Shown in pieces: positions 39,531 to 59,983 of a DNA stretch of 64,000 bases (positions are counted from its first letter, which is position 1; every line of letters begins with the position of its first letter). The notes beneath the pieces are model-generated. The model saw nothing but the letters and a program-made list of their open reading frames with translations. It did not search any database and was not told the origin of the DNA. The stretch spans positions 1-64,000 of the forward strand of contig CAINEC010000162.1 in assembly GCA_903847585.1 (NCBI GenBank), given 5' to 3'. This stretch comes from an uncultured Bacteroidota bacterium. Lineage in GTDB: Bacteria; Bacteroidota; Bacteroidia; AKYH767-A; OLB10. The position numbers and the translations under genes were made by a program.

Positions 39531-41192
39531 ATGATGCTTCGAAATAACTTCTTTTATTCATTGGTCTGCCTCTTTTTAGGGATTACTTTTTCTTCATTAG
39601 GACAAAATAACAAGCCCGATTTTAGATCGCCGGTGGATATTCCGATTTCACTGGCAGGCAATTTTTGTGAAATCAGACCCAATCATTTTCATTCGGGTAT
39701 CGATATCCGAACAAACGGAAAGGAAGGCTTGCCCATCTTCGCAATTGGTGATGGATATGTTTCAAGAATCAAGGTGAGTCCAACAGGATTTGGAAGAGTC
39801 GTTTATATCAACCATCCCGAAGGATATACCTCCGTTTATGCCCATTTATCTTCTTTCAATTCTCCGTTGGATGCTTTTGTTGACTCCATTCAAAAGGCCA
39901 ACGAATCATACGATATGGAAGAATTTCCCGATGCTAAAAGATTCAAAGTCAAAAAAGGGGATTGCATAGGATTCAGCGGTAACTCTGGTTCGAGTTCATC
40001 GCCACATCTACATTTCGAAATTCGTGATTTGAATTCGGAAGAGCCATTGAATCCGCTGGCATTTTTAAATTATGAAGATTCTATTGCACCAGTTATTGAA
40101 CGGATTAGAATAGTCCATATCAATTTAGATAAAGTTTATCAACCAATAACTGATATCTCAACTTCAGATTATTTAATAACTGTAATCACTGGCATTGATT
40201 ATGGGGATTATTATTTTGAATTAAAAGGAAGTGACAATAGTGGAGATTCGTATATGAACTTTTATTCCATTAACGTAATGACAAATAAAGGCGATACACT
40301 ATTTGATTGTAAGTTCGACCGATTTAATTTCGACGAAACAAGAATGGTAAATTCATTTATTAATTACTCTTCATTAGTAAACGATAAAGAAGAATGGCAA
40401 AGACTTTACAAGCTACCCTCCAACACAGCTACACTATTTAAAAACTGTATTTCGAAACCACTTACCATTTCGGATGATAATGATACAATATATTTTAAAG
40501 TTACTGACTATAGTGGCAATTCAACAGTTGAACAAGTCATACTATACGGATTTAAACAAGAAGAAATAATAGGAGATTATAAAGAATCAATTTGCAGATA
40601 TTACAATGAAAGTTTTACCATTCCTTTTAAATATGGATTCATGAATATCCCTGCTAGTGGAATAGATCAATCACTTTGTTACGAGTTAACCGATTACGAT
40701 ACGCTTCCGGATTCAACAACCTTTTTAATTGGTGATCCGTCTGTCCCTTTAATCAAGAATGCAACGGTGGTGATTCAAAAAAAACTGGGCACTAACTTTT
40801 GGCTTTGCGAACGAAATTGGAAGAATGAATTGACCGGAACCTCCTTCAAGTTAGACAGTGCGAAATACGGTTATCAAACAAGCATTAAAAAAATGGGATG
40901 GTACTCGGTAGAATGCGATAGTGTAGCACCACAACTCATAAAAGTAATATCAGAAAAAGACCCTATCATCAAGGAACAGAAAAACATATTATTAAAAATC
41001 AGCGATGATATTTCAGGAGTTAAAAAAGCCAATGTATTCATTAATGGAAATTTCCTTCCATGCGAATTTGATTTGAAACGTAGCAGCGTTGTGATTAAAG
41101 GAAGTCAACTCAAAAAAGGTGATATCATCCAATTAAAATTAATCGACTATCAAGGAAATACTAATTTAATAGAAAATGTCGATTGGAATTGA
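39531..41192 (+). CDS. M23-family metallopeptidase (LytM/peptidase-like)
   Basis: RPNHFHSGIDIRTNGKEGLPIFAIGDGYVSRI ... VYINHPEGYTSVYAHL ... SPHLHFEIRD. Confidence 0.9.
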   Translation: MMLRNNFFYSLVCLFLGITFSSLGQNNKPDFRSPVDIPISLAGNFCEIRPNHFHSGIDIRTNGKEGLPIFAIGDGYVSRIKVSPTGFGRVVYINHPEGYTSVYAHLSSFNSPLDAFVDSIQKANESYDMEEFPDAKRFKVKKGDCIGFSGNSGSSSSPHLHFEIRDLNSEEPLNPLAFLNYEDSIAPVIERIRIVHINLDKVYQPITDISTSDYLITVITGIDYGDYYFELKGSDNSGDSYMNFYSINVMTNKGDTLFDCKFDRFNFDETRMVNSFINYSSLVNDKEEWQRLYKLPSNTATLFKNCISKPLTISDDNDTIYFKVTDYSGNSTVEQVILYGFKQEEIIGDYKESICRYYNESFTIPFKYGFMNIPASGIDQSLCYELTDYDTLPDSTTFLIGDPSVPLIKNATVVIQKKLGTNFWLCERNWKNELTGTSFKLDSAKYGYQTSIKKMGWYSVECDSVAPQLIKVISEKDPIIKEQKNILLKISDDISGVKKANVFINGNFLPCEFDLKRSSVVIKGSQLKKGDIIQLKLIDYQGNTNLIENVDWN

Positions 41193-41212
41193 TAAGGGTC
41201 ATTCGCTTACTA

Positions 41213-41255
41213 TGATGTAAGTCATTTTAAAATGTTATTCGTCGCTGTACTTTTG
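41213..41255 (+). promoter_or_regulatory. Crp/FNR-type site TGATGTAAGTCA (41213-41224) + -7 box TACTTTTG (41248-41255)
   Basis: TGA-N6-TCA palindrome; centre to last G of TAnnTTTG box = 36.5 bp. Confidence 0.65.
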
Positions 41256-41259
41256 ATTT

Positions 41260-41347
41260 CGAGATGGAGACATCCCAACGTACTAGAATAATAGTACCAT
41301 AGTTTACTGGTTTGGTTAGAGCTGTCGAAGGACAGCTCTACTTTTTT
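41260..41347 (+). ncRNA. Candidate approximately 88-nt small RNA
   Basis: Predicted TSS about 5 nt after the -7 box; internal hairpin GTACTA-GAATAA-TAGTAC (41280-41297); ends in an intrinsic terminator; no coding frame of note. Confidence 0.55.
41318..41347 (+). terminator. Rho-independent terminator
   Basis: AGAGCTGTC-GAAG-GACAGCTCT then ACTTTTTT. Confidence 0.85.
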
Positions 41348-41368
41348 CCGTACATTCGCAATAGAATT

Positions 41369-42091
41369 ATGCTTGTTTTATTTTACTTTTTAGCGTTAGT
41401 GGCAGAGGTTGTTGGAACGATAGGTGGGTTTGGCTCCTCGATTTTTTTCGTACCTATTGCTTCTTTCTTTTTTGAACCGAAACTAGTATTAGGCATCACT
41501 GCATTTTTTCATGTGTTTAGTAATATTTCAAAACTCATTTTGTTTGGCAAGCATATCAAAATGAAAATCGCCATCAAGTTTATTATTCCGAGTGTGATTG
41601 GAGTTATCATTGGAGCATTATTAATCGCTAATCAGTCGGGAGAACTATTTTCATTAGCCATCGGAATCTTCCTCATTCTATTTGCGCTATACTTTTTGAT
41701 ATTCCCTTCTCAAGCAATTGAAGCCTCTAATAAAAACATAATAATAGGAGGGAGCAGCGCAGGATTTTTAGCCGGATTTCTTGGAACAGGCGGAGTCATT
41801 CGTGGAGCAGCAATGGCAGCTTTTAATCTCGAAAAGAATTGCTTTGTTGCTACCTCTGCATTTATCGATTTATTCGTTGATATTAGTCGTTCTGCAATCT
41901 ACTATCAAAATGAATTTATCGCTCGTGATAAATTGTATTATATCCTTCCGTTGATTTTAATATCATTTGCTGGAAGCTATATTGGGAAATTAATTCTTGA
42001 AAAATTAAACCAAGATAAGTTCAGAAGAATAGTTTTAATTTTAATTTCGATAATGGGAACGGTATCGGTAATTCGATTTATATGCCAGTAA
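41369..42091 (+). CDS. TauE/SafE-like (TSUP) membrane permease; start trimmed from 41312, which lies 5' of the terminator
   Basis: GGFGSSIFFVPIASFFF, GFLAGFLGTGGVIRGAAM; polytopic. Confidence 0.78.
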   Translation: MLVLFYFLALVAEVVGTIGGFGSSIFFVPIASFFFEPKLVLGITAFFHVFSNISKLILFGKHIKMKIAIKFIIPSVIGVIIGALLIANQSGELFSLAIGIFLILFALYFLIFPSQAIEASNKNIIIGGSSAGFLAGFLGTGGVIRGAAMAAFNLEKNCFVATSAFIDLFVDISRSAIYYQNEFIARDKLYYILPLILISFAGSYIGKLILEKLNQDKFRRIVLILISIMGTVSVIRFICQ

Positions 42092-43122: not shown

Positions 43123-46100
43123 ATGGCATTATTTCAAGAGGCGATTATAAAAAAGCATTTGAGCTTAATTGATGAAAAAATCATTGATGCAGCTTTTAGT
43201 GAATATAAGCGCGTTTACTCGCCCGACAAAATAAAAAATATCAGAGTTGCCAAGGAAGAGCAATACCAGGAAGGATTTATTAAAGATGTATTTGGATCTG
43301 TGTTGGGATACTCTGTTTATCCAGAGCATCCGTATAATATCGAAACAGAGAAGAAGAATGAATCAGATGCTAAAAAAGCCGATGGTGCTATATTAAAGGA
43401 TGAAAAAGTAGTTGGGGTTATTGAGTTAAAAGATAATAAAACTAAAAATCTTGATGCCGTAAAGGATCAGGCCTTTGGGTATAAGCACAATCATAAAGAA
43501 TGTAGTTATGTCATCTCTTCTAATTTTCATAAGCTGCGTTTTTATATTGATGATGCCACCGATTACGAAGAGTTTGATTTATACAATTTAGACAAAGAAA
43601 CCTTTAAGCGTTTTTACCTCTATCTGCGCAAAGAAGGTTTATTAGATAAGAACTTACCTAAGCTTCTTCGACAAGAAACGAAGTTTCACGAAGAAGAGAT
43701 TTCTAAAAAGCTTTATAAGGATTACTCTAATTTCAAACGAAGCTTTTACGAGAATGCGGTAAAGAATAATCCGCAGCACGATAAACTTATCTTATTTAAG
43801 AAAAGTCAGAAGTTTTTAGACCGAATTTTATTTTTATTGTTTGCAGAAGATAAAGGTTTAGTTGGAACTAATTCAATTGTGAACATAGTAGATAAATGGG
43901 CGGAAGCCGATGATGATTATTACCAACCACTCTACGAAATGGTGAACAAATATTTTGGTCACTTGTATCGAGGATATACTTATCAGAAAACAGGTGAGGT
44001 GATACCTCAGTTTGGTGGTGAATTGTTTGCGCCGGATGATGTTTTAGAAACCCTCAAAATTGATGATGAGATTTTGAAGAATGATTTATTGGTGCTTTCT
44101 AAATACGATTTTAATACAGATGTAGATGTAAATATCCTGGGACATATTTTTGAACATTCCTTGAATGAAATTGATGATGTAGAGGCGGAGCTACGTGGGG
44201 AACAGTTAGACAAAACTAAAAGTAAGCGTAAGAAAGACGGGGTGTTTTACACTCCTAAATACATCACTAAATACATTGTTGATAATACCCTTGGTAAATT
44301 ATGTGCTGAGAAAAAAGCGGAGTTACAATTAGACCAGGACATTGCCATATTTGAATATCAGAAAGCAGATGGCAAGCTGAATGAAAAAGGAAGAGAATTA
44401 TTTGAACGATTAAATAATTATAAAGACTGGTTGCTGACTATTAAAGTATGTGATCCCGCATGTGGAAGTGGAGCCTTCTTAAACCAGGCACTTTCTTTTT
44501 TTATTGAAGAACATAAGTTGGTGGATGATATTATAGCAGAACTAACCAATACGCCTTTACGTTTATTTGATACCGACTTGCAAATTTTAGAGAACAATAT
44601 TTTTGGTGTTGACATTAACGAAGAAAGTATTGAGATTGCTAAACTCTCCTTATGGTTACGCACGGCACAGCCAGGTAGAAAACTTTCTGATTTATCCAAT
44701 AACATTAAATGTGGGAACTCATTAATTGATGATCCTGCAATAGCTGGCGACAAAGCATTTAATTGGGAAAAAGAGTTTCCGATTGTTTTTAATAAAGGTG
44801 GGTTTGATGTGGTGATTGGAAATCCGCCGTATGTGAGAAAGCAAGGCTTAATGGAACATTATCCAGAAATGTGCACTTATTACGAAAAGACTTTTAAAGC
44901 AGCCACAGCTAATTATGATGTGTACGCAATTTTCATGGAAAGGAGCTTCAACTTAATTAATGAAAAAGGTGTAGTTTCTTTTATTCTTCCACATAAATTT
45001 TTAGTTACAGATTTTGGTGTTGGCATTCGTTCGTTTTTTAAAGAAAATACTTGTGTGGAATCATTAATTCATTTTGGCTCCCATTTAGTTTTTAATGATG
45101 CATCTACCTATACTTGTATTATTAATCTGACAAAAACAAATAAGCAAAAGGTGTTATTTAAAAAATTAATTCCAGAAGAATTATTGACACAATTTGATTG
45201 GGATTATATGTACTATAAAAATCTTACATCAAACAATTGGGATTTGCAAAGTGAGAAAGTTTTTGATGTCATATCAAAACTAAATACACAACCTTATAAA
45301 GTTGAAGATGTTTTTGATAAGATTTTTCAAGGAATAGCCACCAGCTTGGATGAGGTTTATGTTTTTCAAGGAAAAAAGGAGGGTAATATTATTAAAGGAT
45401 ATAACTCTAAATATGATTATCATTTTGAAATAGAGTCTGGACTTGTGAAGCCATTTATTAAAGGTAATCAACTATCCAGAAATTGTAATCCTCAAATAAC
45501 TAATTATGTTGTTTTTCCATACATTATTGAATCTGATTCACCACTTTCAATGAATGAAAGCTTTATTAAAAGTAATTTCCCTTTAGGTTATTCATATTTG
45601 AAATATTTTGAAACTCAAATAAGAGGACGTGAAAACGGCAAAATGGATAGAGAGGATGATTGGTTTCTCTATATATATCCTAAGAATTTAACCAAGTTCC
45701 AACATCCTAAAATTATGACTCAAGAAATTTCTTTGGGTTGTAATATGACTTACGATAAGGATGGGGTATATTATCATCCAACAACAATTTATTCATTTGT
45801 AAAAAATGAGAAATTTAAAATAGATGATAAATTTTATCTTGGAGTACTTAATTCCAAAGTAATGTGGTTCTTTTTGAAGAATACAGGTACTGAATTAGGG
45901 GGTGGTTATTTCAGATTCAAAACAAATTATCTCAAACCGTTTCCCTTACCAGCAATTCCCCAAAATGCTGATGAAATTATATTCAAAGTTCAATTTGCAT
46001 TAGAAATAAATAAAGAATCTCAATCAATTGAATCGCGATTTACCAACTACTTCGTAAATCAACATAATATTTCAAAACTTACAGGCAAACTCGAAAGTTG

Positions 46101-46338
46101 GTATGAACTCTCTTTCACCGAATTCATCAATGAACTCAACAAAGCCATCAAAGCAAATAAGGGCACAGCATTAACCAAGAAAGATGAATTTGAGTGGATG
46201 GAATTGTTCGAGGAGAACAAGAAAAAAGTACTAGAACTCAAAGCTCAAATAGACCAAACCGACCGAGAGATTGATCGTATGGTGTATGAGCTGTATGAAT
46301 TAACGGAAGAGGAGATACAGATTGTAGAGAATAGTTGA
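43123..46338 (+). CDS. Type IIG-like restriction-modification polypeptide (nuclease + N6-adenine methylase + specificity region)
   Basis: Putative PD-ExK: KKADGAILKDEKVVGVIELKDNK; motif I DPACGSGAFL; motif IV NPPY; C-terminal target-recognition-like region. Confidence 0.87.
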   Translation: MALFQEAIIKKHLSLIDEKIIDAAFSEYKRVYSPDKIKNIRVAKEEQYQEGFIKDVFGSVLGYSVYPEHPYNIETEKKNESDAKKADGAILKDEKVVGVIELKDNKTKNLDAVKDQAFGYKHNHKECSYVISSNFHKLRFYIDDATDYEEFDLYNLDKETFKRFYLYLRKEGLLDKNLPKLLRQETKFHEEEISKKLYKDYSNFKRSFYENAVKNNPQHDKLILFKKSQKFLDRILFLLFAEDKGLVGTNSIVNIVDKWAEADDDYYQPLYEMVNKYFGHLYRGYTYQKTGEVIPQFGGELFAPDDVLETLKIDDEILKNDLLVLSKYDFNTDVDVNILGHIFEHSLNEIDDVEAELRGEQLDKTKSKRKKDGVFYTPKYITKYIVDNTLGKLCAEKKAELQLDQDIAIFEYQKADGKLNEKGRELFERLNNYKDWLLTIKVCDPACGSGAFLNQALSFFIEEHKLVDDIIAELTNTPLRLFDTDLQILENNIFGVDINEESIEIAKLSLWLRTAQPGRKLSDLSNNIKCGNSLIDDPAIAGDKAFNWEKEFPIVFNKGGFDVVIGNPPYVRKQGLMEHYPEMCTYYEKTFKAATANYDVYAIFMERSFNLINEKGVVSFILPHKFLVTDFGVGIRSFFKENTCVESLIHFGSHLVFNDASTYTCIINLTKTNKQKVLFKKLIPEELLTQFDWDYMYYKNLTSNNWDLQSEKVFDVISKLNTQPYKVEDVFDKIFQGIATSLDEVYVFQGKKEGNIIKGYNSKYDYHFEIESGLVKPFIKGNQLSRNCNPQITNYVVFPYIIESDSPLSMNESFIKSNFPLGYSYLKYFETQIRGRENGKMDREDDWFLYIYPKNLTKFQHPKIMTQEISLGCNMTYDKDGVYYHPTTIYSFVKNEKFKIDDKFYLGVLNSKVMWFFLKNTGTELGGGYFRFKTNYLKPFPLPAIPQNADEIIFKVQFALEINKESQSIESRFTNYFVNQHNISKLTGKLESWYELSFTEFINELNKAIKANKGTALTKKDEFEWMELFEENKKKVLELKAQIDQTDREIDRMVYELYELTEEEIQIVENS

Positions 46339-46825: not shown

Positions 46826-47530
46826 TCACTTACACATCTGATGTGTATTCAGTCTTTCATCCTTGCAACAATCACCATCGCCACTTTTCATGGTACTGCC
46901 TCGATGAATTAAAAACAAAGCTAAGGCTATTGCAATAAACGGAGATAGTTTGTTGATGGATAATTTTACTTTAGGACTAAAAATATTTTGAGATACTGCC
47001 ACTAGGTACATCAATGGTAGGGTGCCTAATCCAAACAATAACATATAGAGCGCGGCATTGGTTATACCTCCATAGCTGATTGCACCTGCCATGGCTAAGT
47101 AAACAAATCCACAAGGTAATATTCCGTTTGCTAGTCCTACAACATACATTGCAGTAAATGATTTCTTCTTGATGTAATTTCCGATAACTGATTTTATCTT
47201 AAAAGACATTTTTACTAAACGTCCATTGACTTTACTCAATAGTTTATCGTTTAAAAACAATACAACCAGGATGATTAATATTCCAGAGAAAATACTCAAA
47301 TCACTTTGCAATCCTTTTAATTGAAAACTAATTCCAATTAATCCTGCTATCACACCCAACAGCATATACATCGTAACACGACCGAGTTGGTACATCAAGC
47401 GACCAAGATAAAAATGTCTTGCATCACCATCAACAACAGGTAATGATAACGCAATTGGTCCGCACATACCAAGGCAATGAAAACTCCCTAAAAATCCGAG
47501 CGACAACGCGCTGATCAGATAATAATTCAT
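46826..47530 (-). CDS. SafE/UreH-domain membrane protein of cbb3 loci
   Basis: GFLGSFHCLGMCGPIALSLP, GLANGILPCGFVYLAMAGA; adjacent to ccoH. Confidence 0.85.
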   Translation of the reverse strand: MNYYLISALSLGFLGSFHCLGMCGPIALSLPVVDGDARHFYLGRLMYQLGRVTMYMLLGVIAGLIGISFQLKGLQSDLSIFSGILIILVVLFLNDKLLSKVNGRLVKMSFKIKSVIGNYIKKKSFTAMYVVGLANGILPCGFVYLAMAGAISYGGITNAALYMLLFGLGTLPLMYLVAVSQNIFSPKVKLSINKLSPFIAIALALFLIHRGSTMKSGDGDCCKDERLNTHQMCK

Positions 47531-47531
47531 T

Positions 47532-47963
47532 TTACTGCATCATCAATTTTTCTTCTTGCAAATATTCTTTTCCATCACAACTCCATGCAATGGTCAATCG
47601 CCAGTAGCCTCCCGATAATTTATCCGACTGAACCAGCATTTTACCGTTATCGTTTTTGATGTTCATTGTAAAATCCTTTTGCTTATCATTAGGACGATAA
47701 AATGTCAATGTGCCTTTTATGGCACGATTAGCAAATTCAGAAGGAAAAGATAACTCAAGTGATTTGTCATTAACAGAATTACATACTACAGTTGCGGTAG
47801 CGGCATTCTGCATTTTATTATAACGGTCCTGATATTTTACTTCCTGATCGTAATAATTATCAGCAACTAATTCTGTGTTTTGTTGCGTGCATTTGTAAAC
47901 CAATGTCAACATACCAACAACAAACAACACATAAACAAACATTATTTTATATCCCCAATTCAT
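47532..47963 (-). CDS. ccoH: FixH/CcoH-like cbb3 assembly protein
   Basis: MNWGYKIMFVYVLFVVGMLTLVYKC; NYYDQEVKYQDRYNKMQNA. Confidence 0.88.
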   Translation of the reverse strand: MNWGYKIMFVYVLFVVGMLTLVYKCTQQNTELVADNYYDQEVKYQDRYNKMQNAATATVVCNSVNDKSLELSFPSEFANRAIKGTLTFYRPNDKQKDFTMNIKNDNGKMLVQSDKLSGGYWRLTIAWSCDGKEYLQEEKLMMQ

Positions 47964-47965
47964 AG

Positions 47966-49378
47966 CTATTTTATTTTTACAGGACCAATGAAATTAGTCT
48001 TGATCGTTTCAATTAATTTGTTGCCAGATTTTACTTCTAATACAATAGGCAGTCTTGCATCTACAATTTGATTTTGATTAATCATCACAAAGAATTCTCC
48101 ATCAGCGCTACCTTGACCGTCTAATTTTGTAATCCCATCGCCAACCCATTTCACCGAGCCTGATGGTTGCACCAATTTAATTTCAACGGGCATCTGATCG
48201 AATGTTTTGTTAATCAGATTCACGGTATATAAATTCGAATAGATGCTATCATTTTGTTGTTGGTAGATCATACCAGGAGTACGCAGTATAGTAGATTCCA
48301 CATCGGAACGCATAATTAAAAGTGACAATAGGGTAGTTAGCAAAACGAAGAGCACAAATGAATACGCTTTTATTCTTCCTGTTATTTGAAATTTCGTCCC
48401 TTCAGCAATAGAATTTTCACTTGTATAACGAATTAGACCTTGTGGCTTTTTGATTTTATCCATGATGCCATCACAAGCATCAATACAAGCAGTACAATTT
48501 ACACATTCGAGCTGCGTACCATTACGGATATCGATACCGGTAGGACAAACATTCACACATTGATGACAATCGATGCAATCACCAAATTTAGATTCAGCAG
48601 TCTTTTGCAATTTACCTCTTGGCTCTCCGCGTTTATAATCGTACGCAATAACCACCGAATTTTTATCAAGCAAAACACCTTGTAATCTTCCATAAGGACA
48701 AACAATTAAACAAGCCTGCTCGCGAAAACGCATATACACAGCAAAGAAGACGAATGTAAAAACGAGAATCGCTATTAATCCACCAACGTGATTGAATGGA
48801 TCATCCAAAACAATTTGTTTTAATTCATCGATGCCAATGATGTAAGCAAGAAATGTATTTGCAATGATAAATGAAATCAGAAAAAAGATACTTCCTTTTA
48901 AAATTCGCTTTCTGAATTTTTCGGGAGATGGAGGAGCATTCTTCAATGCCTTTTGTTGCGCTGCATCACCTTCAATCCAGTATTCAATTTTACGAAAGAC
49001 CATTTCCATAAAAATGGTTTGCGGACAAGCCCAACCACACCATAGTCGACCAAACAACGCTGTAAATACAATAATAAAAACAACGAACGTAAGCATCGCC
49101 AACACGAACAAGTAAAAGTCCTGTGGCCAAAATGCAATTCCGAATAAAATAAATTTTCGCTCAACAACATTTAATAACATGAATGGGTGTCCGTTTAATT
49201 TAATAAACGGACCCACAAACATGACTGCTAATAAGAAATAACTAAATAATGTCCTTTTATTATAAAAGCGACCTTTGGGTTTCTTCGGAAAAATCCAATT
49301 ACGGTTACCGTCTTTAGAAATAGTTGAAATACTATCTCTAAAACTATCGGCTTCGTCGTAAATAGCGGGATCCATCAT
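47966..49378 (-). CDS. ccoG: Cytochrome c oxidase accessory ferredoxin-like protein
   Basis: GRLWCGWACPQTIFMEMVFRKIEYWIEGD, CIDCHQCVNVCPTGIDIRNGTQLECVNCTACIDACD. Confidence 0.95.
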   Translation of the reverse strand: MMDPAIYDEADSFRDSISTISKDGNRNWIFPKKPKGRFYNKRTLFSYFLLAVMFVGPFIKLNGHPFMLLNVVERKFILFGIAFWPQDFYLFVLAMLTFVVFIIVFTALFGRLWCGWACPQTIFMEMVFRKIEYWIEGDAAQQKALKNAPPSPEKFRKRILKGSIFFLISFIIANTFLAYIIGIDELKQIVLDDPFNHVGGLIAILVFTFVFFAVYMRFREQACLIVCPYGRLQGVLLDKNSVVIAYDYKRGEPRGKLQKTAESKFGDCIDCHQCVNVCPTGIDIRNGTQLECVNCTACIDACDGIMDKIKKPQGLIRYTSENSIAEGTKFQITGRIKAYSFVLFVLLTTLLSLLIMRSDVESTILRTPGMIYQQQNDSIYSNLYTVNLINKTFDQMPVEIKLVQPSGSVKWVGDGITKLDGQGSADGEFFVMINQNQIVDARLPIVLEVKSGNKLIETIKTNFIGPVKIK

Positions 49379-49386
49379 TATAATTA

Positions 49387-50361
49387 TTAGTTAGCTGTAG
49401 TAGTAACTGTAGTTGCTGTTGAGTCAGTAGCAGTAGGAGCAGAGTCATCTACCCAAACATCACCTTGCGCTGGTTTTGGATTAGCAGGATTCGAATTCTG
49501 CATTGACAAAATATAACTTGAAACAGCTTGAATATTCTTAGGTGTTAATTGCGTTTTCCAGCTGATCATTCCTTTTAAAGGAACGCCATTCGTGATTGTT
49601 CTAAAAACATTTTTTATTCCACCACCATGAATCCAATTAGGGTCCGTTAAATTGGGTCCTATGTTACCTTCCAAATTTTGACCGTGACAAGAAGTACAGT
49701 TTTTATTAAAAATTTCTTTTCCTTCACTTAAAACAGTAGCATCTGCAATGAACTTAACATTTTCAGCAGTAACCATGTCCGCCATTTTTTCATTTCTAAT
49801 TCGTTGAGCTTCATCAGCAGCTTGAACAGAAGCAATGTACTCCTGATCTTGACTATAACCTGTTTTGAAAACATGGAAATGAAACACATAAATTACAGCC
49901 CATATAATGGTGAAGTAAAAACCCCATTTCCACCAAGGAGGTAAATTATTATCTAACTCACGAATGCCATCATAGTCATGATGAAGCATGATGTCCTCTT
50001 CCTTTTCAACGGGTACTGCTTGCGTTAAAACGTTACGATCAAAGCGAGACCAAAACGATTCTGTCTGAACAAGCTTTACCGTTTCTGATTTTAACTGCTG
50101 CTCTTTTTGAGGAGCCATTCCTCTTGCAATAACTAGTAACGTTCTTGCCATAACGAAAATGGCAATCAAGAGAATCAGAATAAAAATAGCCAGGTAATAA
50201 AAAGAAGGTTGGTAGAATAGTGGATCAACGGTTTTAAAGTATTGTCCACTGTTCGCTACTGTTGTACTATCTGTTATCGCTTGTGCATGCACTGTTGTAT
50301 TCATAAACATCAGGCCTGCAATAAATCCTATAGAGATGATATGTTTTTTCATGATAATCAA
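49387..50361 (-). CDS. ccoP: cbb3-type cytochrome c oxidase subunit III
   Basis: NNLPPWWKWGFYFTIIWAVIYVFHFHVF; CTSCHGQNLEGNIGPNLTD. Confidence 0.93.
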   Translation of the reverse strand: MIIMKKHIISIGFIAGLMFMNTTVHAQAITDSTTVANSGQYFKTVDPLFYQPSFYYLAIFILILLIAIFVMARTLLVIARGMAPQKEQQLKSETVKLVQTESFWSRFDRNVLTQAVPVEKEEDIMLHHDYDGIRELDNNLPPWWKWGFYFTIIWAVIYVFHFHVFKTGYSQDQEYIASVQAADEAQRIRNEKMADMVTAENVKFIADATVLSEGKEIFNKNCTSCHGQNLEGNIGPNLTDPNWIHGGGIKNVFRTITNGVPLKGMISWKTQLTPKNIQAVSSYILSMQNSNPANPKPAQGDVWVDDSAPTATDSTATTVTTTAN

Positions 50362-50362
50362 T

Positions 50363-50539
50363 TTATGCGTTATTGGTTTCGTCGTTGCTTAATGGCAACC
50401 TGCTTATTTCATTTAACTCTTCTTTGTTTGCCTTTACCACATAAACAATCAAGGCAGTAAAGAATACGAAGAATACCAGCAGAGAGAACATAGGATAAAT
50501 ACCTACGTCAGTAATTTGTTCTAAATATTGTTTAAACAT
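50363..50539 (-). CDS. ccoQ: CcoQ-like cbb3 subunit (58 aa; below ORF-track cutoff)
   Basis: MFKQYLEQITDVGIYPMFSLLVFFVFFTALIVYVVKANKEELNEISRLPLSNDETNNA*, between ccoP and ccoNO. Confidence 0.82.
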   Translation of the reverse strand: MFKQYLEQITDVGIYPMFSLLVFFVFFTALIVYVVKANKEELNEISRLPLSNDETNNA

Positions 50540-50547
50540 ATGCTTGC

Positions 50548-52680
50548 TTATTTTGTAGTTGAATTATCAGAAACTTTATTTGCTTTAATGTCGACACCTA
50601 ATCGTTGTAAGTAGGCAATCATTGCTACTAACTCTTTATTTGCATCGATAGGAGCACCACTCTTATTTAAGTCAGCAGCAATTTCATTTGCTTGCTTCAT
50701 CAAATCAGCATTGGCTTGTTGATCATACCCTTTTGTGTAAGGAACACCTAACGTAATCATTGCTCTGATTTTTGCTGGAGTAGAAGCAGTATCTAAATTA
50801 TTTTCTGCAAGAAAAGCATACGGAGGCATGATAGAACCTGGCGACATAGTTCGAGGATCAATCATATGATGATAATGCCATACGTTTTGATATTTTCCTC
50901 CTACACGTAATAAATCTGGACCTGTTCGCTTAGAACCCCATTGGAAAGGATGATCATACACAAACTCTCCAGCTTTAGCATATTCACCATAACGTTCTGT
51001 TTCGTGACGGAACGGACGCACCATTTGCGAGTGACAAGTGTAACAACCTTCACGGATATAAATATCACGACCTTGTAATTCAAGTGGAGTATAAGGCTTC
51101 ACAGATGCAATCGTTGGAATATTTTCTTTAATCATGAATGTTGGAATCATCTCCACTAATCCACCAATTAAAATCAACACCGTTGCAAACAACATCATCT
51201 GAATTGGTCTTCTTTCAATCCAACGATGCCAGTGACCACCTTCATGAACAGGAACGGCTTCTAATGCTGGAGCTTCTGCTGGTTCATTCGCTAATAAATC
51301 GCCCGTCTTCATCGTCATCACTAAATTGTAAACCATCGTTAACGCACCTGCTAAATACAATGTACCACCAACAGCACGTAACTTATACATCGGCATTAAC
51401 TTCGTTACCGTTGCTAAAAAGTTTGGATATTTTAATAATCCATCATCTGTAAATTGTTGCCACATCATGTATTGTTCAAACCCTGCCCAATACATCGGAA
51501 TGGCATAGAATAAAATTCCTAACGTTGCTAACCAGAAGTGATAGCTTGCTAATTTTTTAGAGTATAACTCGGTTTGATAAATGCGAGGGATTAACCAATA
51601 TAAAATACCAAACGTTAACATACCATTCCATCCTAGTCCACCAATGTGCACGTGAGCGATAGTCCAATCTGTAAAGTGAGAAATTGCATTCACTGATTTC
51701 AATGATAACATCGGACCTTCAAATGTTGCCATACCGTAAGCAGTGATTGCAACAACCATAAACTTCAATACAACACTTTCACGAACACGATCCCATGCAC
51801 CACGTAATGTCAACAGTCCGTTAATCATACCACCCCAGCTCGGAGCAATTAACATGATAGAGAAAACAGTTCCTAATGATTGCGCCCAATCAGGTAATGC
51901 AGTATATAATAAGTGATGAGGACCAGCCCAGATGTAAATAAAAATTAAAGCCCAAAAGTGAATGATTGATAATCGATAAGAATACACCGGACGATTAGCA
52001 GCCTTCGGAACGAAATAATACATCAAACCTAAATACGGCGTAGTTAAAAAGAAGGCTACTGCATTATGTCCGTACCACCATTGCACTAACGCATCTTGCA
52101 CACCTGCATATACAGGATAACTCTTTAAAAGACTTACTGGAATTTCAATACTATTTACAATGTGAAGTACTGCAACAGTAACCACCGTTGCAATATAAAA
52201 CCAAATGGCAACATATAGATGTCGCTCGCGACGTTTGATAATAGTACCAAACATATTCACCGCAAATACAACCCAAGTAAGTGTGATCAAGATATCAATC
52301 GGCCATTCTAATTCAGCATATTCTTTACCTGTAGTATGTCCTGTAATTAATGTTAATGCAGCAAGCACAATAATCGATTGCCACATCCAGAAATGAAGCT
52401 TGCCTAACAAGTCACTAAATAATCTCGCTTTCGTTAAACGTTGAAGGGAATAATACAATCCCATAAAAATTCCATTACCTACAAAGGCAAAAATGATTGC
52501 GTTGGTATGTATAGGTCGTACGCGACCAAATGTAACATACTCACCTGCGTTTAAACCAGGAAAAGGAATTTGAAGGGCTGCAATTAAACCCACCAACATT
52601 CCTACAATTCCCCAGATAATTGTCGCAATTGCAAAATTCCTAACAATGCGATTGTCGTAGCTATACTTCTCAATTGTCAT
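50548..52680 (-). CDS. ccoNO: Fused cbb3 oxidase subunits I and II (CcoN-CcoO)
   Basis: Heme-copper oxidase I motifs (RPIHTNAIIFAF, WWYGHNAVAFFLTTPYLGLMYYFVPK, HHLLYTALPDW, DWTIAHVHIGGLGWNGM) followed by CYTCHSQMVRPFRHETERYGEYA. Confidence 0.95.
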   Translation of the reverse strand: MTIEKYSYDNRIVRNFAIATIIWGIVGMLVGLIAALQIPFPGLNAGEYVTFGRVRPIHTNAIIFAFVGNGIFMGLYYSLQRLTKARLFSDLLGKLHFWMWQSIIVLAALTLITGHTTGKEYAELEWPIDILITLTWVVFAVNMFGTIIKRRERHLYVAIWFYIATVVTVAVLHIVNSIEIPVSLLKSYPVYAGVQDALVQWWYGHNAVAFFLTTPYLGLMYYFVPKAANRPVYSYRLSIIHFWALIFIYIWAGPHHLLYTALPDWAQSLGTVFSIMLIAPSWGGMINGLLTLRGAWDRVRESVVLKFMVVAITAYGMATFEGPMLSLKSVNAISHFTDWTIAHVHIGGLGWNGMLTFGILYWLIPRIYQTELYSKKLASYHFWLATLGILFYAIPMYWAGFEQYMMWQQFTDDGLLKYPNFLATVTKLMPMYKLRAVGGTLYLAGALTMVYNLVMTMKTGDLLANEPAEAPALEAVPVHEGGHWHRWIERRPIQMMLFATVLILIGGLVEMIPTFMIKENIPTIASVKPYTPLELQGRDIYIREGCYTCHSQMVRPFRHETERYGEYAKAGEFVYDHPFQWGSKRTGPDLLRVGGKYQNVWHYHHMIDPRTMSPGSIMPPYAFLAENNLDTASTPAKIRAMITLGVPYTKGYDQQANADLMKQANEIAADLNKSGAPIDANKELVAMIAYLQRLGVDIKANKVSDNSTTK

Positions 52681-52852
52681 AATGATTGATTTTTGATTTT
52701 TCGTTTGATGTTATTTCATTATCCATTAATATGCGAACTGCAGGGGAAGTATCATCATCAAATTGCCCTGTTTTTACAGACCAGAAAAATGCAATCAGAA
52801 ATCCGATAGCAACGGTTAAACTGGCAATGATTAAAAGGATGATTACTTTCAT
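52670..52852 (-). CDS. ccoS: cbb3 oxidase maturation protein CcoS
   Basis: MKVIILLIIASLTVAIGFLIAFFWSVKTGQFDDDTSPAVRILMD. Confidence 0.92.
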   Translation of the reverse strand: MKVIILLIIASLTVAIGFLIAFFWSVKTGQFDDDTSPAVRILMDNEITSNEKSKINHYDN

Positions 52853-52860
52853 AACGGGAG

Positions 52861-52925
52861 CAAATCTATTTCGAGAGTGGGATTAATTAAATGACCGCTA
52901 TTAGGGTGATTTATGATAATTGTCA
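52861..52925 (-). promoter_or_regulatory. Crp/FNR-type site TGACAATTATCA (minus; 52914-52925) + -7 box TAGATTTG (52861-52868) ahead of ccoS-NOQPGH
   Basis: TGA-N6-TCA; centre to last G of box = 58.5 bp. Confidence 0.65.
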
Positions 52926-52927
52926 AC

Positions 52928-55345
52928 CTACTTCGTGAAACCTAATTGACGTGCTTTTATCGAGCTGGCCACTACCGTATATATCACTAAACTGCTCGTA
53001 CTGATAGGCATTAAAATAGCCGCAATTACAGGCGACAAAGTTCCTTGTACGGCAAACCATAATCCCAGAAAATTATACACCAGTGATATGATAAAACTGA
53101 TGATGATAATTCGGTTAGCTGACTTGGCAAGACGAATTAACTTCTCCAATTTTGATAAATTACTTCCAATAATAATAGCATCACATGCAGGAGTAAAGTT
53201 GTTGATGTCGTTTGAAATGGCAATTCCTACATGGCCATGCATTAACGCACCAGCATCATTTAATCCATCACCAACCATCATCGTTTTAAATCCATGTTGA
53301 TTAAGTTCATTGATGTAATTTAATTTATCAATGGGTTTGCAATGAAAGCGCATATGCGTTCCTTCGGGAAGAATTGTACTTAGGTTGATTCGCTCATGCT
53401 CATCATCACCGCTGATCACACCTAATTGAATATTGTGATTTGATAAGTCGGAAGTTAACTCCTTAACACCTTCGCGATATTTATTTTGAATTGCGAAATA
53501 GCCGTATATTTCATTATCAATTCCAATATATACTCGTGTTGACTTTAATGTATCGAGTTGTTTTTTTCCTGTCAGGTATTCTTCACTTCCAATTTTATAG
53601 TGATGTCCGAAAATCATGGCCGTTAATCCTTGACCAGGAAATTCTTCAATATGAATAGATGTATCTGCGAATGCTTTTAATTTCAAATATTTCGATAATA
53701 CAATACTTAATGGATGAGTAGAAGACGATACTATTGTATAGATAGCACGTAAATGAAAATCGCTCAATTCAACACCGACATAATTTATCTGATTAGATTC
53801 AGGCTCTGTTAATGTGCCTGTCTTATCAAATATAACAGTATCAATATCCGCCAACTTTTCAATCACCTGAACATTGCGTAGATAAATTCCTTTCTTACCA
53901 AGCAATCGAATGATATTTCCGAAGGTAAACGGAGCAGATAATGCTAATGCACAAGCACAAGCAATAACCAACACCGCAGTGAAAGCATTAATTGCTCTTG
54001 TAAAATCCTGATGATACCAATAAGCAAATGATGATATAGCAATAACAACAGTTACCAAGACAAACCAACGGCTAATGGTATTCACCATTTTTTGAAAATA
54101 ACTGGTCTGATTAACTTTATCACTTTGTTGATTCCAAAGTTTAGTCAAGTAACTATTAGAGGTAGCCTGATCTACCATCACGTCAATAGGACCATTCAAT
54201 AATTTAGCTCCCGCATAAATCAATTCACCTTTATTGACTTTAACTGGTGTCGATTCTCCAGAAACAAAACTATAATCAATATGAGCCGATTGATTTAAGA
54301 GTTTTACATCCGCAGGAATAATCTCATGATTACGAATCTTCAGACGATCACCTTTAACAACATCATTAACTAAAACAGTTTCTTCTTTAATGCCATTGTA
54401 TCTCGTAACAGCAATAGGGAAGTAGGAGGTATAATCCCTGTTAAAAGAAAGCCATTGATAGGTTTTATCTTGAAAATTTCTTCCAATAAGCATGAAGAAG
54501 ATAAGTCCGGTCATACTATCAAAATAGCCAGGGCCAGTACCAGAAACAATTTCGTACAAGCTTCTTAAAAACATGGCTAAAATACCAATGGCAATAGGCA
54601 CATCAATATTGACAACCTTTTGTCGGAAGCTTCTGAAAGAGTTTATAAAAAATTCACTTGCAGAATAAAAGAAAACCGGCAATGCTAAAACCACAATCAC
54701 ATATCGAAATAATTGTCGGAAGTCCTCAGCGCCAAAAACACCTCCCGATAAATATTCAGGAAAACTCAACAACATAATATTTCCAAAAGCAAATCCCGCT
54801 AAACCGATTTTATAAATCCTTGCATTCGATTTTTTAGCGAACTGATGATTGCTGACTTTATTTAAATTCAATTCTGGCTCGTAACCAATTAAAGTAAGTT
54901 GTTCAACTATATTGCGAAGGGAAGTTGCCGACGAATTAAAAACAATCAATATTTCCTTACTTACAAAATCAACTTGTGATCGTACCACGCCCTTATCGAT
55001 TCTTGAAAAATTCTCTAACAACCAAATACAACTACTACAATGCATATTCGGAATATGGAAACGAATATGAACTTCATTCTTAGATTTAAAACTGATTAAC
55101 TTCTCAATAATTTGCTCTTCCTCTAAAAAAGCAAAGCGATTACCGAGATAACTGTTCTTACGATTTATGCCAGGGTTATCGGAAATAGCGTAATAATTAC
55201 AAAGGTTGTTTTCATTCAGTACTTCATATACTAACTTACAGCCTACGCAACAAAAGTCTTTATCATCAAATTTAACTTTGTCTTCTTCACACTTTTCGTG
55301 ACAATGATAACAATTGGTAACTACTGAAGTATTTGTTAATGACAT
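52928..55345 (-). CDS. ccoI: Heavy-metal P-type ATPase for cbb3 assembly (CcoI/FixI)
   Basis: Zn-like Cys cluster, HCSSCIWLLE, CACALALSAPF, FDKTGTLTEP, VGDGLNDAGALMHGHVGIAI. Confidence 0.95.
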   Translation of the reverse strand: MSLTNTSVVTNCYHCHEKCEEDKVKFDDKDFCCVGCKLVYEVLNENNLCNYYAISDNPGINRKNSYLGNRFAFLEEEQIIEKLISFKSKNEVHIRFHIPNMHCSSCIWLLENFSRIDKGVVRSQVDFVSKEILIVFNSSATSLRNIVEQLTLIGYEPELNLNKVSNHQFAKKSNARIYKIGLAGFAFGNIMLLSFPEYLSGGVFGAEDFRQLFRYVIVVLALPVFFYSASEFFINSFRSFRQKVVNIDVPIAIGILAMFLRSLYEIVSGTGPGYFDSMTGLIFFMLIGRNFQDKTYQWLSFNRDYTSYFPIAVTRYNGIKEETVLVNDVVKGDRLKIRNHEIIPADVKLLNQSAHIDYSFVSGESTPVKVNKGELIYAGAKLLNGPIDVMVDQATSNSYLTKLWNQQSDKVNQTSYFQKMVNTISRWFVLVTVVIAISSFAYWYHQDFTRAINAFTAVLVIACACALALSAPFTFGNIIRLLGKKGIYLRNVQVIEKLADIDTVIFDKTGTLTEPESNQINYVGVELSDFHLRAIYTIVSSSTHPLSIVLSKYLKLKAFADTSIHIEEFPGQGLTAMIFGHHYKIGSEEYLTGKKQLDTLKSTRVYIGIDNEIYGYFAIQNKYREGVKELTSDLSNHNIQLGVISGDDEHERINLSTILPEGTHMRFHCKPIDKLNYINELNQHGFKTMMVGDGLNDAGALMHGHVGIAISNDINNFTPACDAIIIGSNLSKLEKLIRLAKSANRIIIISFIISLVYNFLGLWFAVQGTLSPVIAAILMPISTSSLVIYTVVASSIKARQLGFTK

Positions 55346-55364
55346 ATCATTTAAATCTTGAATA

Positions 55365-55407
55365 CAAGATTATTCAATGTATACACCTATACTAATGACA
55401 AATGTCA
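55365..55407 (-). promoter_or_regulatory. Crp/FNR-type site TGACATTTGTCA (minus; 55396-55407) + -7-like box TAATCTTG (55365-55372) ahead of ccoI
   Basis: Perfect TGACA/TGTCA arms; spacing 36.5 bp; box has one mismatch to TAnnTTTG. Confidence 0.65.
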
Positions 55408-55472
55408 GTTGCTATTTTGATAGTGGTCACAAAACATTTTTTCCAAAAAGTGGTTTAAATTATATCTATGAA

Positions 55473-55515
55473 TGACGTAGGTCATTTGCAACTCATCTTG
55501 AATAAAGCAATTTTG
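55473..55515 (+). promoter_or_regulatory. Crp/FNR-type site TGACGTAGGTCA (55473-55484) + -7-like box CAATTTTG (55508-55515)
   Basis: TGAC/GTCA arms; spacing 36.5 bp; one mismatch in box. Confidence 0.6.
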
Positions 55516-55535
55516 CAAATACATAATTGAACAAC

Positions 55536-55937
55536 ATGTTATCCGAAACAAAAGCGTCGAGCTCGCTACACCTTTACATCGATTTAAACTCAAGACTTTC
55601 TGAAATCCAAAGAGAGTTCAATTCTTATTTCCCATTCTTAAAGATTGAATTTTTTAAAGCACCTCATAAAATCGGACAAGGATTAAAGAAAGATCTAATC
55701 ATCAATTCGAATAAATTAGTGAAGGATTGTTCAACTATCAAAAAGGGTGGTGTAATTGAATTTACCAATATCACTCCTGTAAGCGATTTAGAAACGAAAT
55801 TTTTCAAAGACTTTAAATTATCTGTGCAGGTATTTAGAAAGGCAGGTAGGGTATGGTTAGAAACAACTGCAACAGATAGCTGGACCTTAGCGCAACAAAA
55901 TGAAGAAGGCGCTGAATTCTCAACGCCATCTAAATAA
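55536..55937 (+). CDS. Conserved small hypothetical protein divergent from ccoI
   Basis: 133-aa ORF (MLSETKASSSLHLYIDLN...VWLETTATDSWTLAQQNEEGAEF) directly downstream of a Crp/FNR-type promoter. Confidence 0.65.
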   Translation: MLSETKASSSLHLYIDLNSRLSEIQREFNSYFPFLKIEFFKAPHKIGQGLKKDLIINSNKLVKDCSTIKKGGVIEFTNITPVSDLETKFFKDFKLSVQVFRKAGRVWLETTATDSWTLAQQNEEGAEFSTPSK

Positions 55938-55950
55938 TTTGATCTTCCTT

Positions 55951-57009
55951 TTAAGCTTTTAAATGACGAAGCTTTTCATCATTGATGATTTTAATTTTTC
56001 CGTCTTTAATCTCAATTAACTTTTCTTCTTTAAAATCACTAAGCGTTCTAATCAACGACTCTGTAGCTGTCCCAACAATATTGGCTAAATCTTCACGAGC
56101 GATTGCCATAGCAAAATGAGATGCATCAGTCGTCTTGTACTTATCTTGTAATAAAATCAATGCCTCGGCAGTTCTCTTTCTAACAGAACTGTAAGCCAAT
56201 TCTAATAGACGTTCTTGCTTATCGATAACACCCTTTGTTAAAAAACGAATGAAGTTCTTCGTAACGGCATGGTTGCTATAAACCAGATTGAAAAATTCTT
56301 CCTTAGGAATAAAAATCACTTCTGACTCTTCTAATGTTTCAGCACTTTCAATATAAGGCTTTTCTTCTAACAGTGATACATATCCGAAGAAATCACCTTC
56401 TTTCAACAAATCAGTGATCAACTCTTTACCATACTCATGCGTCTTAGTAATTTTTACTTTACCTGACTTCACATAATAAATTCCGTTAGGGTAGTGGTGC
56501 TCCTGATAAATCTTTTCTTTCTTTTTATAATGATTCACTTTTTTGCCATCCAGGAATTTCTTCAAGGCTGCATCACCAGCCACATCACTGATGAAATGAC
56601 TTAGTCCATCAAAGTCAGGTTGATAATCTTTCTTAAGTGCATCAGCTCTTTTCAAACGACTTTCAATAGCATTTAATAGCTCCGTCTTATCAAAAGGTTT
56701 GGTGATATAATCATCGGCACCTAAATCCATTCCTTTACGCATATCGCTACGTTCTGCTTTTGCTGTCAGGAAGATAAATGGAACTGAGTTTAAATCGGTA
56801 TCCTTGCTCAGTAAATGTAAAACTCCATAGCCATCTAAACCTGGCATCATGATATCACAGATAATCAAATCTGGTTTTTCCTTACGAGCCATTTCAACAC
56901 CATCTTTTCCATCAGGTGCTGTACAAACTGTATAATTCGCCAGCTCTAAAATCTCAGCTGTATTTTCTCTTACATCCAGATTGTCTTCAATTAATAAAAT
57001 CTTTTTCAT
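55951..57009 (-). CDS. Response regulator: receiver + cNMP-like sensor + Crp-type HTH
   Basis: KILLIEDNLDVRENTAEIL / LIICDIMMPGLDGYG / FLTAKA / KPFD; jelly-roll YYVKSGKVKITK...GDFFGY; HTH IAREDLANIVGTATESLIRTLSDF. Confidence 0.92.
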   Translation of the reverse strand: MKKILLIEDNLDVRENTAEILELANYTVCTAPDGKDGVEMARKEKPDLIICDIMMPGLDGYGVLHLLSKDTDLNSVPFIFLTAKAERSDMRKGMDLGADDYITKPFDKTELLNAIESRLKRADALKKDYQPDFDGLSHFISDVAGDAALKKFLDGKKVNHYKKKEKIYQEHHYPNGIYYVKSGKVKITKTHEYGKELITDLLKEGDFFGYVSLLEEKPYIESAETLEESEVIFIPKEEFFNLVYSNHAVTKNFIRFLTKGVIDKQERLLELAYSSVRKRTAEALILLQDKYKTTDASHFAMAIAREDLANIVGTATESLIRTLSDFKEEKLIEIKDGKIKIINDEKLRHLKA

Positions 57010-57013
57010 AGCA

Positions 57014-58255
57014 TTAATTTATTTGATTCGGAAAAGTGATCTCGATCCTTGTTCCTTCGTTTAGTTTACTAGTTAAATGTAAATGACCTTTCATAATGTC
57101 AACATAGTTGCCCACAATATGTAACCCTAATCCTGTACCTTGAATATTAAATGCATTTTTTCCTCTATAGAAACGTTCAAACAAATGCTTCAAATCTTCC
57201 TCGCTAATTCCAATTCCCTGATCTTGCACCACCATTTTTATTTCATTGGAATTCACATCTGCATCCAATGTTATAGACTTGCCTTCTGATGAAAATTTAA
57301 TAGCATTACTTAAAAGATTAAAAAGAATATTCTTGATTAGCTTAGCATCAAGAAACACCAAATTATCACCATGATAATTAATAACTATTTCCTGTCCTGC
57401 TTTTGTATTCTGACGCATATCACTCGCAATTTCATTCATCAGAATATTCAAATCGAACATACTCATATCTGCATGAATCTTTCCTTCTTCTAATTTACTG
57501 ATAGATAGAAAATCACTTAAGATATCATTCAGGTTATTAACTGAAGACTGAATTCGTTTGATATGCTTTTGCTTTTTCTCTTCTTGCTCGGGAGTTTTAT
57601 ATTCTGAAATCAAAACAGCAGAAGAAAGGATAGTGGTGAGTGGTGTACGAAACTCATGCGATGCCATTGAAATAAATCGCGACTTTAAATCATTCAGGTC
57701 TTTTTCTTTTTCGAGGGCCATACTTAATTCTGATCTCGACTTCTCTAATTCCAAAATTGCTTCTTGCAAAACGCTGGTACGATCAGAAACCTTACGTTCT
57801 AAATCTTCATTCGACTTTTGCAAGGTAAGTGCAATCTGCTCAAGCTCTAATTGTTTTTCCCTTACAGAAGCTTCAATCTTCTTTCTAACAGAAATATCAA
57901 TCAAAAAGGCAATGATGTATTTGCGATCATCCTTAAAAATAGGACTCAAGCTAATCTCTATTGGGAACAAGGTGCCATCTTTTCTCAATGCATGTAAATC
58001 TAAACCTAATCCCATCGGACGAGCATGTGGCTTATCGATATACGATTTACGATGATGTTCATGATGTCCTTTGATGTTCTTAGGTACTAATACATCAATC
58101 GATTCATTTAATAATTCATTCGACTCATATCCGAACATCTTACATGCTGCTGGATTCATCAATTGAATCAATCCACTTTCATTGGAAATAATAATCCCTT
58201 CAGTAGCATGATTGAACAGGGCATCGAGTAACTCGACTTTCTCAAAATTCTGCAT
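57014..58255 (-). CDS. PAS-domain sensor histidine kinase
   Basis: PAS (NESGLIQLMNPAACKMFGYE...HALRKDGTLFPIEISLSP), H-box MASHEFRTPLTTILSS, N/G boxes NLLSNAIKFS, GTGLGLHIV. Confidence 0.93.
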   Translation of the reverse strand: MQNFEKVELLDALFNHATEGIIISNESGLIQLMNPAACKMFGYESNELLNESIDVLVPKNIKGHHEHHRKSYIDKPHARPMGLGLDLHALRKDGTLFPIEISLSPIFKDDRKYIIAFLIDISVRKKIEASVREKQLELEQIALTLQKSNEDLERKVSDRTSVLQEAILELEKSRSELSMALEKEKDLNDLKSRFISMASHEFRTPLTTILSSAVLISEYKTPEQEEKKQKHIKRIQSSVNNLNDILSDFLSISKLEEGKIHADMSMFDLNILMNEIASDMRQNTKAGQEIVINYHGDNLVFLDAKLIKNILFNLLSNAIKFSSEGKSITLDADVNSNEIKMVVQDQGIGISEEDLKHLFERFYRGKNAFNIQGTGLGLHIVGNYVDIMKGHLHLTSKLNEGTRIEITFPNQIN

Positions 58256-58304
58256 TTGACTAAAATAAGTAAGCTCTAAAAATAAACATTTTTAATGCGC
58301 TCTA

Positions 58305-58484
58305 TTATTTATTGCTGCTATATCCTGCTAAATAATACAACGGACAAAATCCAGAAGCACCTGTTACAAACGGGATTAAACCCGAAATTGCCCAAAATGA
58401 ATTATGATAGATAAAAAAAGACGCGACAGTTACTCCAGCAACTAAGCGAATAACTCGTTCATTAAAATTTTCATTGGTTACCAT
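58305..58484 (-). CDS. DUF2892/YgaP-like small membrane protein (59 aa; below ORF-track cutoff)
   Basis: MVTNENFNERVIRLVAGVTVASFFIYHNSFWAISGLIPFVTGASGFCPLYYLAGYSSNK*. Confidence 0.8.
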   Translation of the reverse strand: MVTNENFNERVIRLVAGVTVASFFIYHNSFWAISGLIPFVTGASGFCPLYYLAGYSSNK

Positions 58485-58506
58485 AGTGATATTTATTTGT
58501 TGAATC

Positions 58507-58571
58507 CAAAAGTAGATGCTCCATCCAACGAAATAAATTACGCTAATCAGTACACGTTATGATAAATGTCA
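58507..58571 (-). promoter_or_regulatory. Crp/FNR-type site TGACATTTATCA (minus; 58560-58571) + -7 box TACTTTTG (58507-58514) ahead of the DUF2892 gene
   Basis: TGA-N6-TCA; spacing 58.5 bp; perfect TAnnTTTG box. Confidence 0.65.
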
Positions 58572-58572
58572 C

Positions 58573-59973: not shown

Positions 59974-59983
59974 AGCAATGAAT

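Follow-up and report, generated by a model that had tools for sequence, protein, structure and literature searches.

A region between an M23 peptidase gene and a TauE/SafE (TSUP) permease gene in an uncultured Bacteroidota bacterium (genome G000) is probably a stand-alone, Crp/FNR-controlled small RNA gene that remains from an hsp20 gene after loss of its coding sequence and whose conserved core pairs with mRNAs. The region was analysed within a 64,000-nucleotide stretch of DNA, referred to here as the window. The ways in which bacteria gain new small RNAs are still an open question, and the relatives of this bacterium seem to show the steps side by side: a whole gene whose 3′UTR is conserved (G021 and G008), a decayed gene (G023), the RNA only (five genomes) and nothing at all (G004 and G013). 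Such a series allows a direct test of the idea that small RNAs can be born when mRNAs lose their coding part, and it may show how a regulatory RNA outlives its gene of origin. For a little-studied Bacteroidota family, the analysis also outlines a promoter grammar of the Crp/FNR-type regulon, with boxes 29 and 51 nt upstream of TAnnTTTG, and adds an RNA as a candidate arm of it.

In the proposed mechanism, a regulator of the Crp/FNR family would activate the promoter, the most likely candidate being the response regulator-Crp protein, whose gene lies 14 kb away next to those of the high-affinity cbb3 oxidase. At low oxygen, a class I box would mediate activation, in G000 and G001 together with a class II box. 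RNA polymerase would make an RNA of ∼88 nt that ends at an intrinsic terminator, and the 18-nt unpaired core of this RNA would then base-pair with mRNAs. The locus itself would descend from an FNR-type-controlled hsp20 gene that lost its coding sequence, while the promoter, the last codons with the stop codon, the 3′UTR core and the terminator stayed. Within this scheme, we infer the discrete transcript, the low-oxygen signal, the action in trans and the identity of the target mRNA.

Table 1. Predicted features of the RNA locus, and related genes and promoters, in the window
Feature	Position	Strand	Comment
M23 peptidase gene	39531..41192	+	Upstream neighbour; marker of the orthologous slot
Crp/FNR-like box TTGATAAGGGTCAT, 8/10	41189..41202	+	Overlaps the M23 stop codon; class I position
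Second Crp/FNR-like palindrome ATGATGTAAGTCAT	41212..41225	+	Centred 29 nt upstream of the -7 box (class II)
Bacteroidota -7 box TACTTTTG (TAnnTTTG)	41248..41255	+	Sequence match
Predicted small RNA, ~88 nt	41259..41347	+	Start taken from the -7 box and end from the T run, both inferred
5′ hairpin GATG-GAGA-CATC, 4 bp	41263..41274	+	Predicted fold
12-codon frame METSQRTRIIVP-stop	41264..41302	+	End is the relict C-terminus and stop of the lost hsp20 frame
Second hairpin GTACTA-GAATAA-TAGTAC, 6 bp	41280..41297	+	Arms 41280-41285/41292-41297
Conserved unpaired 18-nt core/linker CATAGTTTACTGGTTTGG	41298..41315	+	Between the hairpins and the terminator; linker extends to 41316
Intrinsic terminator	41317..41347	+	10-bp stem, GAAG loop, T6
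TACATTCGC, -7-box variant	41351..41359	+	Would give tauE its own promoter; activity predicted
TauE/SafE (TSUP) permease gene	41369..42091	+	Downstream neighbour; ATG at 41369
ccoNO promoter	52861..52925	-	Box TTGACAATTATCAT 51 nt before TAGATTTG; architecture as at the RNA locus
Response regulator-cNMP-HTH_Crp protein	55951..57009	-	Likely regulator of the RNA promoter; weakly predicted RNA target
Promoter of the DUF2892-like/PAS kinase/response regulator-Crp operon	58507..58571	-	Box GTGACATTTATCAT 51 nt before TACTTTTG

The layout of a stand-alone small RNA, proposed in an initial annotation of this DNA, is supported by a -7 box and terminator of its own and by a TAnnTTCGC box for TauE after the terminator (Table 1). 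The -7 box, a linker that is unpaired in the predicted G000 fold and the start codon of TauE likewise hold up. Two elements needed amendment: the GTACTA/TAGTAC hairpin is present, but a further GATG/CATC hairpin had been missed, and the terminator has the GAAG loop and T6 as described, but a stem of 10 rather than 9 bp. A terminator scan found one terminator, against 0.1 expected by chance. The predicted RNA folds with a z-score of −3.3 when the terminator is included and −0.09 when it is left out. The significant fold thus comes from the terminator, the predicted structure outside it being no better than chance, and folding alone is no evidence for an RNA.

The Crp/FNR-type promoter of the initial annotation is upheld by box spacings that match two family-wide peaks as well as the ccoNO and kinase/Crp-regulator promoters. 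Across 25 family genomes, the spacing of TGATNNNNATCA before TAnnTTTG peaks at 51 nt (28 of 133 matches), while TGACNNNNRTCA peaks at both 29 nt (27 of 123) and 51 nt (26 of 123). A smaller cluster of boxes lies 39-42 nt before TAnnTTTG in these genomes, beside the sharp peaks at 29 and 51 nt. CRP and FNR act from class I and class II positions at about −62 and −40, respectively, which match 51 and 29 nt provided that the -7 box begins near −11. The two spacings could represent a class I/class II promoter grammar and possibly define the Crp/FNR-type regulon of the family.

Each of the eight orthologous loci has a Crp/FNR-like box whose centre lies 51 nt (52 nt in G000) upstream of a single TAnnTTTG. 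This class I box, TTGATAAGGGTCAT in G000, scores 8/10 there and just 7/10 in G001. The operator first annotated was a different one, the palindrome ATGATGTAAGTCAT; it is indeed present, sits at the family-wide 29-nt peak and recurs in G001 as GTGACATTTGTCAT, but the better box, TTGATAAGGGTCAT, had been overlooked. In the window, ccoNO and the kinase operon have the same 51-nt arrangement upstream, and the kinase operon also has it in G001, G005, G007 and G023. Shuffled sequences lead one to expect 0.55 sites of at least 8/10 with this type of arrangement per window, so weight is placed on the position before these particular genes and on the family-wide peaks. At two Hsp20 genes elsewhere (L185, G001:C83:7958-8275; L186, G006:C22:12634-12951), ATGACTCACATCAT lies ∼29 nt before a TACTTTTA box, and these genes may belong to the same regulon as the RNA locus.

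The orthologous slot was located via the M23 gene in 25 family genomes; it was left out in G002, G006 and G017, where the contig ends inside that gene. In G000, G001, G003, G005 and G007, the linker and terminator (CATAGTTTRCWGGTTTGG plus hairpin) form a short RNA-only unit followed by tauE. Nothing was found at the slot in G004 and G013, and G004 is also without tauE. Since it is absent from these two genomes, the element is evidently dispensable. A model of the core and terminator, run on 43 genomes of the order, recovered eight slot loci at 43-75 bits and no others at or above 43 bits; the next matches reach at most 37 bits and, where inspected, are ordinary terminators that belong to other genes. 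The exact core pattern occurs in 117 stretches of a contig collection, in which the credible members all belong to this family and the others inspected are without a terminator. With three mismatches allowed, a search of 398 genomes of the phylum gave one true site, and the remainder look like chance.

Compared with G000, the core is identical at 18 of 18 positions in G001 and at 16 of 18 in G003, G007, G023 and G021, and it has diverged to 12 of 18 in G008. At fourfold-degenerate sites of the neighbouring tauE, G000 shows just 31-45% identity to those genomes, which means saturation. Judged by this comparison, which comprises eight loci of a single family, several of them from MAGs, the core is conserved beyond the saturation of fourfold sites. 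Covariation, put forward initially as a check, speaks for the terminator, whose stem is 95% paired across loci with double changes at three pairs, but not for the upstream hairpins, which show no pair-by-pair homology between the two clades. G003, G005 and G007 instead carry a hairpin of different sequence in place of GTACTA/TAGTAC. Structure prediction leaves the core unpaired in G000 and G007, whereas G003 and G005 have a different minimum-energy fold.

Where the element came from is explained by a putative origin in the 3′ end of hsp20, which did not figure in the initial annotation. In G021, an intact hsp20 (AAA GTT TCA TAG TTTGCAGGTTTGGG; Pfam HSP20) has the core as its stop codon (TCA TAG) and 3′UTR. 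G008 likewise has an intact hsp20 with the core and terminator as its stop codon and 3′UTR, and the corresponding stretch of G023 is taken up by a decayed hsp20 that ends in KIKVS-stop and has the same tail. The 3′ end of a protein gene and its terminator are thus shared in G021 and G008 and relict in G023, and the coding part is gone from G000. In G003 and G005, the start context TCAGCCATGA is still visible, fused to the last codons. Other hsp20 copies in the family have 3′UTRs without the core. A universal-stress-protein-like gene (L085, 6534-7367 in G021) lies near the hsp20/DoxX/CDF cluster and fits a stress or low-oxygen locus.

The Hsp20 proteins of the slot group (97/91) with a G012 Hsp20 encoded elsewhere, whose gene likewise has its -7 box 51 nt downstream of a Crp/FNR-like box; the grouping and the shared box suggest that promoter and hsp20 form an older unit. 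In a tree of the M23 proteins, which has long branches for G008 and others, the RNA-only genomes fall into a single clade (100/99), and G023 joins G021 and G008 (100/99). This topology implies two or more losses of the coding part, with the promoter, core and terminator kept. The comparison among relatives supports the orthologous slot, the promoter architecture, the conserved core and terminator, the proposed hsp20 origin and two apparently separate coding losses. Derivation from hsp20 would equally fit a functionless relict, in which the promoter and 3′UTR of a deleted hsp20 are still transcribed but inactive, as would the complete loss in G004 and G013 and the lack of a clear target among core-complement sites. 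We consider such a relict unlikely, as the core, -7 box, box spacing and terminator pairing have outlasted the saturation of fourfold sites and survived two separate coding losses.

FnrS is an enterobacterial, FNR-activated small RNA whose pairing with mRNAs of aerobic metabolism depends on Hfq. The initial annotation drew a parallel with FnrS and claimed no sequence homology, and rightly so: the FnrS model of Rfam has no match at the gathering score, nor at E up to 10 in a 211-nt stretch. No credible family of any kind emerged at the gathering score or at E 10; the BTnc049 model scored just 15.8 bits, where its cut-off is 81.9. The likeness is functional only. It consists in a short stand-alone RNA with a Crp/FNR-type promoter and intrinsic terminator, predicted to be made in low oxygen, and in FNR-type boxes at the RNA's own promoter (51-52 nt, and also 29 nt) at the family-wide spacing peaks. 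Unlike FnrS, which it does not match in sequence, the candidate belongs to another phylum, has a TAnnTTTG promoter, occurs where Hfq was not found and appears to be hsp20-derived. By analogy, it would be a functional parallel of FnrS rather than a homologue and would work like FnrS or NarS.

NarS comes from the 3′UTR of the FNR-activated narK mRNA, from which it is cut out by RNase E (PMC9438474). It is the closest known system in origin: the mRNA that carries the core at its 3′ end in G021 and G008 is likewise under FNR-type control. However, NarS is processed from an mRNA, whereas the coding part of the candidate is gone and its promoter would make the RNA directly. MalH and MicX occupy the same slot, one processed from an mRNA and the other transcribed from its own promoter (PMC9438474). 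They come closest in showing two states of one 3′-end RNA among relatives, but the MicX promoter is a separate one, whereas the candidate keeps the old mRNA promoter with the coding sequence deleted. The B. thetaiotaomicron BTnc set (PMC7366714, PMC10994844) and F. psychrophilum Rfp18 (PMC9723704) belong to the same phylum as the candidate and are also short and intergenic, but no family match links them to it. A literature search of partial coverage yielded no clear precedent for small RNAs born by coding-sequence loss.

A cbb3 oxidase cluster (ccoNO, ccoP, ccoG and a ccoI-like gene; 46826-61033) lies in the window beside a PAS histidine kinase and the response regulator-cNMP-HTH_Crp fusion. 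In F. psychrophilum, the cbb3 oxidase is upregulated under oxygen limitation (PMC9723704), and the cbb3 neighbourhood points to low oxygen as the signal. Target prediction with the linker, also suggested initially, found no enrichment of complements: core-complement sites in five genomes numbered 97, five of them the element itself, versus 135 in the control. It did give a suggestive pairing of the core with the start of the response regulator-Crp gene (pairing energies of −12.0 to −18.1, with shuffle fractions of 0-0.14, in six genomes). Selected initially from the list of a single genome, this start ranks first of the 15 genes common to G000, G005 and G007. The pairing site overlaps codons that are conserved in the kinase. 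Pairing with the response regulator-Crp mRNA is a lead and only suggestive. The start of the DUF2892-like gene, a 59-aa ORF (58305-58484, minus strand) that comes first in the kinase operon, was rejected as a target, ranking second of 171 in G005 but 67th of 152 in G007. A more specific scenario, in which an RNA from the 3′UTR of an oxygen-controlled hsp20 mRNA outlived its host gene in two lineages, is now made alone from the mRNA promoter and feeds back by pairing near the start of the mRNA of the response regulator-Crp protein that drives it, is doubtful.

Rather than pairing with mRNAs, the core might bind a protein or another small RNA as a sponge or decoy. Its conservation already as an hsp20 3′UTR, the GU-rich single strand that precedes the terminator and the unenriched mRNA complements would suit such a role. 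Hfq was not found in six genomes, however, nor an RRM protein in G000, and we rate this very unlikely. An RRM protein is present in G001 only (L325, G001:C155:2271-2480), on a separate contig that is possibly a contaminant.

The preferred stand-alone RNA gene would, on sequence alone, be a unit with its own promoter box and intrinsic terminator, separate from its neighbours. TAnnTTCGC is tenfold enriched before genes (1.9% versus 0.2% in shuffles) and looks like a weaker form of the Bacteroidota -7 box. A scripted scan placed it between the terminator and the next gene in G001, G007 and G021; in G000 and G008, where it falls outside the range of the scan, it was read directly from the sequence, and G003 and G005 have TATCTTAGC at its position. 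That next gene is DoxX, not TauE, in G021, G023 and G008. Both the box and the change of gene argue against a cis-acting leader or attenuator, in which the RNA and terminator would set read-through into tauE and the cation-efflux gene. The tauE ATG does stand just 22 nt past the T run, the RNA adjoins tauE in all five RNA-only genomes, and G004 is without either. Yet, by eye, the terminator arm seems to have no upstream pairing partner common to both clades and the short frames are not conserved, which leaves a leader quite unlikely.

Still less credible is a 12-codon, nearly leaderless peptide, for which frames exist in G000 (METSQRTRIIVP) and G001 (MRWRHLSTKKIVP). These two frames differ through a 2-nt indel, G003 and G005 have ATG AAA TTA TAG and G007 has GTG, and the conserved portion is the untranslated core; we give this reading hardly any credence. 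Further along the window, directly downstream of the cation-efflux gene, lies a gene (43123-46338) whose large product, judged from its sequence only, is a type IIG-like restriction-modification protein.
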